This document shows positions 13,206 to 52,510 of a DNA stretch of 64,000 bases, one piece after another. The stretch is from NCBI RefSeq assembly GCF_900105685.1, contig NZ_LT629781.1, positions 1,550,001-1,614,000 on the forward strand, in the 5' to 3' direction. Source of the stretch: Verrucomicrobium sp. GAS474 (GTDB lineage Bacteria; Verrucomicrobiota; Verrucomicrobiia; Methylacidiphilales; GAS474). A program made the translations under genes and the position numbers. Numbering within the stretch: the first letter of the stretch is position 1; the number at the start of each line of letters is the position of its first letter. The notes beneath the pieces are model-generated. The model saw only the letters and a list, made by a program, of their open reading frames with translations, was not told the origin of the DNA and made no database searches.

Positions 13206-13240
13206 GGGGGCGGCGCGTTTTTTGCGCTGTTTTGCGGGGT

Positions 13241-13490
13241 GCCCTTTGGGGCTGGCGGGGGCGACCCGGTACAGCTGGAGGCGATCCGTTTTATAGCCCA
13301 AGAGGGGCTTCGCCCCTCCTGGAACCTCCTGTTCTGAGGGCCTGAACTAGGCGGACGCGCTTGGGCGGTGCCTTGTCTCCGAACTGGATAAAAATCCGCT
13401 GCTTCCTGGAGCGCCCGAGGGTACGGATTGCGGGGGGAGACGGGGCCAATACGCCCTGACTCCTATTGGGAGAGGGGCGCTTGGGAGACG
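13241..13490 (+). repeat. Intergenic repeat element, copy 1 (half element)
   Basis: The gap between two convergent genes is almost entirely filled by a repeat also seen near 17.1, 31.8, 35.9 and 40.4 kb. From left to right it has a GCCCTTTGGGGC hairpin, GTACAGCTGGAGGCGATCC, the hairpin GAGGGGCTTCGCCCCTC, ACCTCCTGTTCTGAGGG, and GCCTTGTCTCCGAACTGGA. It ends four bases before the stop codon of the convergent glycosyltransferase gene. It corresponds to one half of the full element. No protein is expected; a rho-independent-like role at the ends of both genes is possible. Confidence 0.85.
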
Positions 13491-16849: not shown

Positions 16850-17121
16850 GCTTGGGGACGCGGGGTTCATCCCAAGCGTTTTCTCTCCGATGGGAGTCTG
16901 GGCGTATTGGCCCGTCTCTCCTTATAGCTCGTACCCTCGGGCGCTCCGGGAAACAGCGGATTTTAAAACAGTTAAGAGACAAGGCGCCGCCCAAGCGCGT
17001 CCGCCAAGTTCAGGCCCTCCGAAGGGGAGGTTCGAGGAGGGGCGAAGCCCCTCTTGGGCTATAAAACGGATCGCCTCCAGCTGTACAGGGTTGACCGCGC
17101 AAGCCCCGAAGGGCTGCCCCG
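16850..17121 (-). repeat. Intergenic repeat element, copy 2a (half element, inverted)
   Basis: This is the copy-1 half element in the opposite orientation. GGGAGTCTGGGCGTATTGG, GATTTTAAAACAGTTAAGAGA, the hairpin GAGGGGCGAAGCCCCTC, GGATCGCCTCCAGCTGTAC and a terminal GCCCCGAAGGGC hairpin can be followed in order. It begins about 10 bases after the stop of the copper ATPase gene. About 80 bases of unrelated sequence separate it from copy 2b. Together they fill the 588-base gap between convergent genes, in which I see no gene. Confidence 0.85.
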
Positions 17122-17202
17122 CTCCCTTGCCTTCCAAGGAAGAGGCCGCATCGAAGCAGCATCCATGGAAGAGATACGCACGGGGGAAATGGATCGCGGC
17201 GG

Positions 17203-17425
17203 AGGGGCAGCCCTTCGGAACCGGGTACATCTCCCTGTACAACTGGAGGCAACCCGCGCGTCTAAAGATGCAAGAGGGGCTGCGCCCCTCCTGCACCGCC
17301 CCCTCTGATGGGCCTTGGTGTAGATAGGGCGTGATCCAAGAGGCCTTATCTCCCATAAGCCCACTCTACTCCGCTGGATCTAACCTCGATGAGGGCCGAG
17401 GCCTGGGAGGAGCATCCCGAGGCAC
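17203..17425 (+). repeat. Intergenic repeat element, copy 2b (other half element)
   Basis: This half starts with GGCAGCCCTTCGGAACCGG and GTACATCTCCCTGTAC, then the hairpin GAGGGGCTGCGCCCCTC, and then a block shared almost word for word with copies 5 and 6: GGGCCTTGGTGTAGAT, CTATCTCCCATA-like sequence, CTCTACTCCGCTGGATC and GAGGGCCGAG. It ends a few bases before the stop codon of the convergent arginase-fold gene. The two halves here are in an order not seen in copies 3 and 5, which implies a rearrangement or two separate partial copies. Confidence 0.85.
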
Positions 17426-17431
17426 CCCCCT

Positions 17432-18355
17432 CTACCCCGTGGCCATCAACAGCGGCAGCAATCGTGCCGCCGCCCGCTCGTTCATCACCCGGCCCTCTTC
17501 CCGTTCCTCCTCCGTCCGGGTCGGCAGGGCGGGATGATCGAGCCGCGCGAGGAATCGCTGCACCGGGCGCTCATACAACTCGCCTTCGCCCCTACCCGAC
17601 GTCGCGCCGCACAGGTCGCCGCCCGCGAGGCGTCCGGCCTGCCGCACCTGCGCCACGGCCCAGGCCACGTCGTCGAGGGTGAAGAGGCCGTTTTCCCAAT
17701 CGGTCTGGGCTTCCTGCGGGCGGAGGCAGTCGAGGTCGACGGTGATGTAGAAGCGGCGGCCCTGGCGGGCCTTGAGGAAGTCGAGGAAGGCCTTCCGCCA
17801 CGTCGCCCGCTCCAGCCACGGCCAGGCGTCGGGGGCGAGGGCGGGGAAGCGTTCCCGCCACGGGAAGAGCCGGAGCCGTCCCTTCCGGACGGCGCGGCGG
17901 TTCCCCAGCAGGCGGACGGGCCAGTTCAGCTCCATGTTGCCGCAGCCCCAGACGGCGGCCTCGGCGACGAGGGGGAGGTCGAGCGCCCGGTTGATCCATC
18001 CGCCGCAGGCCCAGCGCGGCGGCGTCCAAGCCCAGTCGGGATGGTTGTCGAAGGAGAGAAGGACGAGCGGCTCGGCCTCCGGGTGACGGGCGGCGGTCGA
18101 AATCCGCTGCAGCCAGACTGCGGCGAGGTGGTGGAAATCGCCCGATCCGTAGAGGATCGGGAGGCCCCGGTATTCGGGAAGACAGAGGGTCGGGAAGAGC
18201 TCGTCCCGGAGGGCGGCGAGGGACGAGGCGGGGGCGCAGAAGCGGAGGGCCGGGCCCCATTGCCGGAGGGGGATCGTCGGCAGGGCGGTGGAGCCGATCT
18301 CGGCGGCCAGGGGGCTCCAGGCCCCGTCGAGGTCGATGTGAAGGGCGACAGGCAC
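17432..18355 (-). CDS. Arginase/ureohydrolase-fold protein
   Basis: A 307-residue protein with the metal-binding motifs of the arginase-agmatinase-deacetylase fold: GSGDFHHL at 70-77, FDNHPD at 102-107 (a DxHxD triad) and TVDLDC at 205-210 (DxD). These match in order GGDHS, DAHAD and SxDxD of arginases, so a binuclear Mn centre is likely. The rest differs from true arginases and agmatinases, and the final residues are an Arg/Glu-rich tail. A C-N hydrolase on a guanidino or related substrate is possible, but the substrate is unknown. It starts 13 bases after the stop of the upstream beta-barrel gene, suggesting cotranscription. Confidence 0.75.
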   Translation of the reverse strand: MPVALHIDLDGAWSPLAAEIGSTALPTIPLRQWGPALRFCAPASSLAALRDELFPTLCLPEYRGLPILYGSGDFHHLAAVWLQRISTAARHPEAEPLVLLSFDNHPDWAWTPPRWACGGWINRALDLPLVAEAAVWGCGNMELNWPVRLLGNRRAVRKGRLRLFPWRERFPALAPDAWPWLERATWRKAFLDFLKARQGRRFYITVDLDCLRPQEAQTDWENGLFTLDDVAWAVAQVRQAGRLAGGDLCGATSGRGEGELYERPVQRFLARLDHPALPTRTEEEREEGRVMNERAAARLLPLLMATG

Positions 18356-31579: not shown

Positions 31580-31595
31580 AGGGAGCGCGGGGGAG

Positions 31596-31955
31596 GGGCA
31601 GCCCTTCGGGACCGGGTACATCTCCCTGTACAGCTGGACGAGCCATGGGAAGGAGCATCCAAGGATGCAGGCCCATCTCCTCGGTGCTGAACCCCTGAAG
31701 ATATCTCTCCCATACGTTTCCCTCCCGCTGGGAGTCTGGGCGTATGGGTACCGCTTCCCCTTCAGTACGTACCCTCGGACGCTCGGGAAGCAGCCGATTT
31801 TAATCCAGTTCGGAGACGAGGCGCCGCCCAAACGCGTCCGCCTAGCTCAGGCCCTCCGAAGGGGAGGTTCGAGGAGGGGCGGAGCCCCTCTTGGGCTATA
31901 AAGCGGATCGCCTCCAGCTGTACAGCGTCGACCCCGCCAGCCCCAAAGGGCGCTC
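31596..31955 (-). repeat. Intergenic repeat element, copy 3
   Basis: A 360-base copy lacking much of one half. It begins with GGCAGCCCTTCGGGACCGGG and GTACATCTCCCTGTACAGCT, then GCCATGGGAAGGAGCATCC. In the centre are the stem CCATACG/CGTATGG enclosing CTCCCGCTGGGAG, then CGATTTTAATCCAG. Near the right end are GAGGGGCGGAGCCCCTC, GGATCGCCTCCAGCTGTAC and a terminal GCCCCAAAGGGC hairpin. It fills the whole gap between convergent genes, which contains no gene. Confidence 0.87.
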
Positions 31956-31964
31956 CCCAACCCC

Positions 31965-35801: not shown

Positions 35802-35807
35802 GGGGGG

Positions 35808-36092
35808 CGGCCCTTCGGGGCTGGCGGGGTCGACCCTGTACAGCTGGAGGCGATCCGCTTTATAGCCCAAGAGGGGCTTCGCCCCTCCTGGAACCTCCTG
35901 TTCTGAGGGCCTGAACTAGGCGGATGCGCTTTGGCGGCGCCTTGTCTCCGAACTGGATTAAAATCGGATGGTTCCCTGAGCGTCCGAGGGTACGGAGTGT
36001 GGGGGGAGACGGGGCCAAGACGCCTAGACTCCTATTGGGAGATAGGCCTTTTGGGTCGCGCTTTATCTACGGCTATGGGGCTGCCCCTCCCC
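35808..36092 (+). repeat. Intergenic repeat element, copy 4
   Basis: Same orientation as copy 1 and very like it: GCGGCCCTTCGGGGCTGG, GTACAGCTGGAGGCGATCC, GAGGGGCTTCGCCCCTC, ACCTCCTGTTCTGAGGG, GCCTTGTCTCCGAACTGGA. It then continues past the point where copy 1 stops, into TATTGGGAGATAGGCC and CTTTATCTACGGC, which is a degraded inverted version of the other half. It starts 7 bases after the receptor-like gene's stop. Unlike copies 1, 2, 3 and 5, the next gene (36135) reads in the same direction. Confidence 0.87.
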
Positions 36093-39229: not shown

Positions 39230-40114
39230 ATGTCTCTTAGCGATGCCTCCCTTTCCTCCGTCGCCGACGCCGTCAGCGTCCCTTCGGTTCCCGTATTGAC
39301 GATCCTCGTCGCCGACGACAGCCGGATCGACCGCCGTATCGCCGCCTCGATCCTCGAAGGACGGGGCCATCGTGTCGTCGTCGCCGCTGACGGGACGGCC
39401 GCCCTCGCCGCCTTCAGCGAGGGGGAGAGGAGCGGCACGCTCTTCGACGCCGCCGTGATCGATTTCCAGATGCCCGGCCTCGGCGGGGAGGAACTCGCCC
39501 TCGCCCTCCGGGAAGAGGGCAAGGCCCGCGACGGCGTCCGCCGCCGCCCGCTTCGCATCGTCCTCCTGAGCGGCGCCGCCGACGGGCAGGCCGCCTGGAA
39601 GGGGATCGACGTCGCCCTCCTGAAGCCCCTCGACCCCACCTCCCTCACCGAGGCGATCGAGACGGAAGGACGGGCCAATGCCGCCGCGCCCGCCCCCGCC
39701 CCGGCCACGCCGCCCGAGAAGCCGACCCTCCTCGCCGCCGTCTCCGGGGAGCAGCACGAGCTGGGCCGCGTCGTCTTCGATCTCGGCGAGGCCCTCTCCC
39801 GGGCGCGGGGCAAGCGGGCGCTCCTCATCGAGCTGGTGAAGATCTTCATGGAAGATTCGGAGACCTACATCGTCACCCTCCGGAAGGCCGTCGCCGAGGG
39901 GAACCTCGAGGTGGTCGAAAAAGCGGCCCACCGGATCAAGGGCTCCTCGGCCAACGTCAGCGCCCAGCTCGCCTCCGACGCGGCCGCGACCATCGAGAAG
40001 ACGATCCGCGCGACGCCCGTCCTCCCCGATGCGGCGCTCTTCGATACCCTCTATGAAGAAGTGACGAAGGCGCGGAAGGCGCTGGCGGGGTTCCTGGCGC
40101 AGAATCAGGTTTAG
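39230..40114 (+). CDS. Receiver-Hpt phosphorelay protein
   Basis: A 294-residue cytoplasmic protein with two phosphotransfer domains. The receiver covers about 22-147: acidic pair DD29-30, phosphoryl Asp D78 in VIDFQMPG, and K132 in LLKPLDP. After an Ala/Pro linker (148-165) an Hpt domain spans about 180-294, with H234 in AAHRIKGSSANVSA as the phosphorylated His. There is no DNA-binding or kinase domain. It may take phosphate from a hybrid kinase elsewhere and pass it on. No kinase gene is adjacent; the next gene is convergent across a repeat. Confidence 0.88.
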   Translation: MSLSDASLSSVADAVSVPSVPVLTILVADDSRIDRRIAASILEGRGHRVVVAADGTAALAAFSEGERSGTLFDAAVIDFQMPGLGGEELALALREEGKARDGVRRRPLRIVLLSGAADGQAAWKGIDVALLKPLDPTSLTEAIETEGRANAAAPAPAPATPPEKPTLLAAVSGEQHELGRVVFDLGEALSRARGKRALLIELVKIFMEDSETYIVTLRKAVAEGNLEVVEKAAHRIKGSSANVSAQLASDAAATIEKTIRATPVLPDAALFDTLYEEVTKARKALAGFLAQNQV

Positions 40115-40136
40115 GGGGAAAGGGGTCGCGGGGGGA

Positions 40137-40645
40137 GGGGCAGCCCTTCGGGACCGGGTACATCTCCCTGTACAGGTGGATGCCGGACGCGCGTTTGAAC
40201 GAACGGAGGGGCACGCCCCTCCGGACCCTCCTGTCTGATGGGCCTTGGTGTAGATGGGGCGTAATCCTAAAGGCCTATCTCCCATACGCCCGCTCTACTC
40301 CGCTGGATCTAACCTCCTTGAGGGCCGAGCCATGGGAAGGAGCATCCAAGGATGCAGGCTTATCTCCTCGGTGCTGAACCCCTGAAGATATCTCTTCCAT
40401 ACGCTTCCCTCCCGATAGGAATCTGGGCGTATGGGTACTGCTACCCCTTCAGTACGTACCCTCGGGCGTACTGGAACCATCCGATTTTAATCCAGTGAGG
40501 AGACAAGGCGCAGGGGGAACGCGTCCGCCTAGTTAAGGCTCTCAGAACAGGAGGTCACGGAGGGGCGAAGCCCCTCTGTGGCGTTAAAGCGGATCGCCTC
40601 CAGCTGTACCGGGTCGACCGCGCAAGTCCCGAAGGGCCCCCCAAC
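40137..40645 (-). repeat. Intergenic repeat element, copy 5 (most complete copy)
   Basis: About 510 bases between convergent genes. The left end (GGCAGCCCTTCGGGACCGGG, GTACATCTCCCTGTACAGGT, GGAGGGGCACGCCCCTCC) and the reverse complement of the right end (GGGCCCTTCGGGAC, GTACAGCTGGAGGCGATCC, GAGGGGCTTCGCCCCTC, ACCTCCTGTTCTGA) are imperfect inverted copies of each other. Internal stems include GGGCGTA/TACGCCC, CTCCTT/AAGGAG, CCATACGC/GCGTATGG and CAGTACG/CGTACTG. No open frame in it has coding character. It is delimited by the stop codons of the two flanking genes within about 25 bases on each side. Confidence 0.9.
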
Positions 40646-52105: not shown

Positions 52106-52185
52106 GGGGGAGGGGCGGCCCTTCGGGGCTGGGTACATCCCCCGTACAGGTGAATGTAACCCGCGCGTTTGAACGAACGGAGGGG

Positions 52186-52248
52186 TTGCCTCCCGGCCCT
52201 GCAAGTTAGTCTCCCCTGAGGAACGAGTGTGCTAGCGCGACGGCAGTC
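52186..52248 (+). repeat. 63-base insertion inside repeat copy 6 (first)
   Basis: Compared with copy 5, the loop of the GGAGGGG/GCCCCTCC hairpin is replaced by a 63-base segment beginning TTGCCTCCCGGCCCTGC and ending CGGCAGTC. It is homologous over its whole length to the second insertion 14 bases later. It is too short to encode a protein. Confidence 0.8.
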
Positions 52249-52261
52249 GCCCCTCCGGACC

Positions 52262-52325
52262 TTGTCTCCCGACCCTGCTAATTAATTGCCCCTTTACGAG
52301 GTGTTGCGCTATCGCGCAGGCAGTC
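52262..52325 (+). repeat. 64-base insertion inside repeat copy 6 (second)
   Basis: Begins TTGTCTCCCGACCCTGC and ends AGGCAGTC, aligning with the first insertion along its length. It contains a TGCGC-TATC-GCGCA hairpin. Relative to copy 5 it sits between GGACC and CTGTCTGAT, replacing at most a few bases. Two related inserts side by side suggest a very small mobile palindromic unit. Confidence 0.8.
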
Positions 52326-52510
52326 CTGTCTGATAGGCCGTGGTGTAGATAGGGCGCTACCCTAAAGGCCTGTCTCCCATAAGCCCACTCTACTCCGCTG
52401 GATCGAACCTCCTTGAGGGCCGAGCCATGGGAAGGAGCATCCACAAGCAAAGCTGTGTGTTCCCTTTCCAAAGGGCGTGACAGGGTTTAGAGTTGCCTCT
52501 GCTTCATCGC

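Follow-up and report, generated by a model that had tools for sequence, protein, structure and literature searches.

A modular family of intergenic repeats at gene ends in Verrucomicrobium sp. GAS474, with likenesses to BIMEs and MITEs

Introduction

Several kinds of short, multicopy repeat have been described in bacteria, and the family reported here resembles each of them in part. Like BIMEs, the repeats of Verrucomicrobium sp. GAS474 are mosaics of repeated palindromic units that alternate in orientation, lie in intergenic DNA with recurring types of spacer and exceed 100 copies per genome. Head-to-head and tail-to-tail layouts have been described for REP dimers and BIMEs (PMC3733652, PMC2817692). 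Such dimers, together with a presumed mobilisation in trans and sequence families restricted to a genus, also recall REPINs and the GTAG- or CGTC-tagged REPs. With MITEs such as the Correia elements and RUP, the GAS474 family shares short, non-coding, intergenic units and, in one composite form, inverted ends. The BOX elements of Streptococcus pneumoniae are likewise modular, with an internal module of variable number and about 100 copies; they are reduced or absent in relatives (PMC3049150).

The family also departs from all four. Its unit is about 250 nt long and joins a common head to interchangeable tails, whereas a REP of a BIME measures 20-40 nt, and GAS474 has no RAYT gene. REPINs and tagged REPs differ from it in unit size, and it has neither a GTAG- or CGTC-tagged short palindrome nor a Y1 transposase; CGTC REPs are likewise without a known transposase (PMC3733652). 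Unlike MITEs, the family is GC-rich, most of its copies have no inverted ends, and it comes with no detected cognate transposase or clear target duplication. Its sequence is unrelated to that of BOX, and its modules are a head, alternative tails and a 63-nt unit borne in hairpin loops. The announcement of the GAS474 genome (PMC5786674) does not mention repeats. We conclude that this repeat family is real, large, modular and, as far as the literature searched shows, undescribed, and that it is most like a BIME or MITE population.

Results

The window, by which we mean the whole 64,000-nt stretch that was analysed, is C1:1550001-1614000 of the single-contig complete genome (3,763,444 bp). An earlier note on this DNA had placed six copies of one hairpin-rich element in it, at 13.24, 16.85 plus 17.20, 31.60, 35.81, 40.14 and 52.11 kb. 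Searches with nhmmer profiles found family members at all six sites. Profiles built from the copies separate three types of unit (R, L and S), each about 250 nt long. The family is broader than six copies of one element, with at least three tail types on a common head. The features of the window are as follows (window coordinates).

40131..40382, + strand: L unit of the L-R composite, on the left with its head outward (nhmmer L profile, 267 bits; C1:1590131-1590382)
40393..40642, + strand: R unit of the L-R composite, tail to the left and head outward on the right (nhmmer R profile, 272 bits; 1590393-1590642)
40112..40117, + strand: TAG stop codon of the left gene, then the G run at the head-side boundary
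40205..40222, + strand: L-head hairpin GGAGGGGC/GCCCCTCC, one of the two loops that hold X in other copies
40556..40580, + strand: equivalent hairpin in the R head, CACGGAGGGGC-GAA-GCCCCTCTGTG
13236..13488, - strand: R unit (nhmmer, 249 bits)
16870..17120, + strand: R unit (nhmmer, 251 bits)
17199..17441, + strand: L unit, head towards the preceding R head (nhmmer, 236 bits)
31589..31695, + strand: L remnant, its head end (31589-31639) joined to its tail end (31637-31695) without the middle
31706..31957, + strand: R unit that forms a deleted L-R composite together with the preceding L remnant (nhmmer, 256 bits)
35804..36052, - strand: R unit, accompanied at 36035-36070 by a short fragment of an L tail (nhmmer, 255 bits)
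52106..52461, + strand: L unit split by two X units (nhmmer pieces 52106-52199 and 52323-52461)
52186..52248, + strand: X unit (63 nt) within the GAGGGGC hairpin loop
52262..52325, + strand: second X unit, in the GAAC..GTTC-type loop position

The head, about 110 nt, is common to R, L and S units, and the tails differ. Its parts are, in order, CCCTTCGGGAC, GTACAGSTGGA, the GAGGGGC hairpin and CCTCCTGTTCTGA. At least one further tail variant exists (genome positions 166474 and 1096053). The copy at 40.13 kb, about 510 bp long, is an L-R composite in which the tails are joined and the heads point outward. Its two ends carry the same ordered parts, just as the earlier note had described, and their inverted similarity extends to within a short distance of the stop codons of the genes on both sides.

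Counts across the genome rest on exact patterns with reversed controls. A 24-nt R core with at most 3 mismatches gave 109 matches (reversed control, 0), and the head pattern gave 179 (80 forward and 99 reverse, a balanced division between the strands; control, 0), 8 of them within the 64-kb window against 0.00 expected. A 516-bp query (40130-40645) drew 77 BLAST matches from the genome, with E values down to 1e-271. The stretches taken around copies hold about 107 R, 28 L and 21 S units (156 in total), which together cover 36 kb (about 1% of the genome). Overall, the family comprises about 160 to 180 copies and about 1% of the chromosome. Further copies, on whose presence the note's reading had depended, are therefore plentiful, and their ends are fairly well defined. 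The near-identical blocks that it had reported did not hold up: the copies are related only, with a mean pairwise divergence of 18% among R units, which form subtypes with exchange of blocks, and 3.5-14% between nearest neighbours. Since even nearest-neighbour R copies are at least 3.5% apart, there are no very young, near-identical copies, and current activity of the family is not demonstrated.

The units are combined in a few recurrent ways. L-R composites number about 13 in the genome, all with the same tail-to-tail junction and at unrelated sites; single R units are far more numerous. R units also lie head to head across a spacer in eight clusters. In the two clusters tested with TRF, this spacer is a 47-nt tandem array of 3.2-3.3 copies, whose words include CTCCCAAGCG and CCCATACGC. 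Mosaic arrays of alternating orientation are thus found in intergenic regions, as in BIMEs. Terminal inverted repeats of the kind that mark MITEs occur in the L-R composites only and not in single R, L or S units.

A smaller unit, X (63 nt, 27 copies), lies within the heads. The first 21 copies to be inspected all lie at one of the two head hairpin loop positions. In copies without X the loop is uninterrupted, and such copies therefore provide internal empty sites for X. One X-like sequence (C1:1389594-1389664), found with contig C222:3470-3537 of a related metagenome-derived genome (the MAG described below), may lie outside a head.

The copies are intergenic, and their position relative to genes is far from even. 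Genes were called with a simple script that relies on codon usage learnt from the window, so the following gene-context counts are approximate. Convergent gaps account for 55 of the 115 that are occupied, tandem gaps for 50 and divergent gaps for 10; the 47 junctions of the window, taken for comparison, comprise 7, 33 and 7, respectively (binomial 7e-17 for the convergent excess and 0.07 for divergent gaps). On either side, the distance from the end of a unit to a stop codon has a median of 22 nt. Where a stop codon adjoins the head, it is TAG in 48 of 67 cases, compared with 38% elsewhere (Fisher 3e-6), and G makes up 64-82%, as against 20-35%, at the next five bases. The word TAGGGG was present in 48 of 139 flanks on the head side, compared with 11 of 139 on the tail side (p = 6e-8). 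The TAG comes largely from the stop codons of genes; the G run may be either the end of the element or part of its target. Orientation with respect to genes in tandem gaps is random (15 co-directional, 18 opposite), a pattern more in keeping with insertion than with a signal tied to one strand. Ordinary housekeeping genes make up the neighbourhood, and no family recurs among 99 flanking proteins. As a separate observation, R units are strongly depleted in the 1 Mb of C1:2250000-3250000 (4 of 104 located units; binomial 2e-9), a stretch that lies near the replication terminus by rough GC-skew values taken from the stretches around copies.

The description of the copies as hairpin-rich applies to the composite and not to its constituents. 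The L-R composite folds strongly on both strands (z = -5.4 and -6.5) because its heads are inverted, whereas single R, L and S units fold like shuffled or control sequence, R with a slight excess on one strand. An Rfam scan of the window returned only two tRNAs, neither relevant to the repeats. The covariation term of RNAalifold was about nil, and only 5 column pairs rose above a tree-based null, all of them within local subtype blocks and most not pairing. Columns 168/191 of R do co-vary in a pairing-compatible manner, and all of their pairs are standard. No canonical intrinsic terminator (a GC-rich stem with a T run) was found in any of 129 element intervals. Nor do R units have a conserved reading frame: no frame holds an open stretch of at least 70 aa in more than about a quarter of the copies.

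The GAS474 genome and 39 relatives were searched for PF01797 (Y1_Tnp/RAYT). There was no match in GAS474, and the same search found the domain in 5 control genomes. The second congeneric genome (G001) has no Y1_Tnp. The MAG has two Y1_Tnp genes (contigs C392 and C251), of about 151 aa and about 71% identical in DNA. These are flanked by inverted repeats of their own with an accaccgg/ccggtggt motif, a RAYT- or TIRtron-like arrangement unrelated to the family studied here, and no L, R, S or X profile matched within about 1.2 kb of them, even at E 10. No GTAG- or CGTC-tagged short (20-40-nt) palindrome was seen; the unit is about 250 nt, though inverted pairs of this large unit do occur. No transposase family recurs among the 99 flanking proteins. 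Across 77 isolated units, the mean longest word common to the two flanks was 5.56, as against 5.32 in re-paired flanks (p = 0.04); by this test no clear target-site duplication stands out, and there was no empty site close enough to align.

At the sensitivity used, and with the records of GAS474 itself excluded, the head pattern was found among 84,980 species only in the MAG of an uncultured congeneric Verrucomicrobium, CAISZB01 bin-317, which carries relatives of L, S, R and X. No match to the family came from viral contigs, phages or plasmids at that sensitivity. Among the genomes searched, the family is confined to the genus. Within the genus, the second genome has no copy at the BLAST threshold and the MAG has many, which implies that the family was gained or lost there. 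Many contigs of the MAG end inside a unit, and the repeats thereby explain breaks in its assembly.

Individual sites differ as well. The composite at 40.13 kb is missing in the MAG between the same two genes, which are separated there by about 90 nt. At the 35.8-kb site the MAG has a plain terminator instead of a unit, at the 16.85-kb site no unit accompanies the preceding gene, and in the 13.2-kb gap the MAG carries another type of unit. Conversely, GAS474 lacks a counterpart of two MAG units, at 1733 and 6694 on contig C222. All five clear orthologous sites therefore differ between these distant species, and no insertion is common to them. This comparison supports gain and loss of units between the two genomes, although absence in the MAG could partly reflect loss or decay, because the genes differ by about 10-25% and intergenic sequence is not alignable; at such divergence the site differences do not establish recent movement.

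Discussion

These observations are probably best explained if the family consists of non-coding, non-autonomous, interspersed mosaic repeats that have spread by the copying of DNA units into intergenic space. Mobility would be conferred in trans by a head-recognising enzyme. Purifying selection would remove those insertions that fall in promoters or genes, and the mosaics may have been made through recombination between copies. Position is perhaps also shaped by a target consisting of TAG and a G run, and any host function, whether as a terminator, an mRNA end or a determinant of chromosome structure, would be secondary. A more specific proposal is that one mobilisation head with interchangeable tails is moved by an enzyme other than Y1/RAYT that prefers TAG-G-run sites at gene ends, with X parasitising the hairpin loops. 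We offer this proposal tentatively, as in all its parts together it is rather doubtful.

The earlier interpretation of the family as MITE- or REPIN-like is only partly supported. The inverted-end layout of the L-R composites, the high copy number, the fairly defined ends and the unrelated insertion sites in a congeneric genome stand, and membership in the REPs or REPINs is rejected, as GAS474 has no Y1/RAYT and the Y1 genes of the MAG carry unrelated repeats. A RAYT-driven system, in which the units and their composites would be REPs moved by a Y1 tyrosine transposase, could account for the high copy number, the intergenic location, the head-to-head and tail-to-tail dimers and the palindromic hairpin in each head, and the presence of two Y1_Tnp genes in the related MAG lends it some appeal. 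Against this weigh the absence of Y1_Tnp from GAS474, the different repeat beside the MAG genes and a unit of about 250 nt, rather than 20-40 nt, without a GTAG-tagged short palindrome; we consider such a system very improbable. The family could instead be the MITE of a DDE-type (or other) IS, present or past, with the L-R composite as the MITE proper and the single units as its derivatives. Terminal inverted repeats in some 13 composites of about 510 bp, high copy number, lack of coding capacity and the different sites in the relative all agree with this idea. But inverted ends are lacking from most copies, which are single head-tail units, the composites are not an obvious parent because R singles far outnumber them, no transposase family recurs among the 99 flanking proteins, and target duplications, which the note had named as support beside many copies with defined ends, are not convincing. 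MITE membership is thus unproven, and on this evidence we judge a MITE origin unlikely, though not negligible.

Two further accounts were considered. An element maintained by selection at 3' ends, as a terminator, an RNA-processing site or a barrier between convergent genes, is suggested by the excess of convergent gaps (55 of 115 occupied gaps as against 7 of 47 window junctions), by the median of 22 nt to stop codons and by the ordinary terminator that the MAG has at the 35.8-kb site. The same convergent bias, however, would result from purifying selection against insertion into promoters. Further, none of the 129 element intervals holds a canonical intrinsic terminator, orientation is unbiased, single units fold like shuffled sequence, and units are not conserved at orthologous sites; selective maintenance is accordingly an improbable explanation. 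A multicopy family of structured RNA genes seems the least probable of all. The conserved head hairpin and the co-varying R columns 168/191 speak for it, but there is no Rfam match, fold z-scores are at control level, the 5 column pairs above the tree-based null are mostly non-pairing local subtype blocks, and the RNAalifold term is about nil. On RNAalifold, the tree-based null and the z-scores, it was rejected as the main reading.

An undescribed modular repeat family occupies about 1% of this chromosome; it marks the ends of genes, and its sites shift from one species of the genus to another in the absence of the usual RAYT engine. If the family is mobile, it points to another route for the spread of bacterial intergenic repeats. 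The head can serve as a concrete bait in a search for the protein that would move the units. One locus departs from the general anatomy: at C1:3350981-3351340, the middle of the unit is replaced by a small AT-rich ORF of about 80 codons (MKKLFLITGGVLVVGAGYG...), possibly a captured gene, with an S-like head on one side and the S-like end of a tail on the other.
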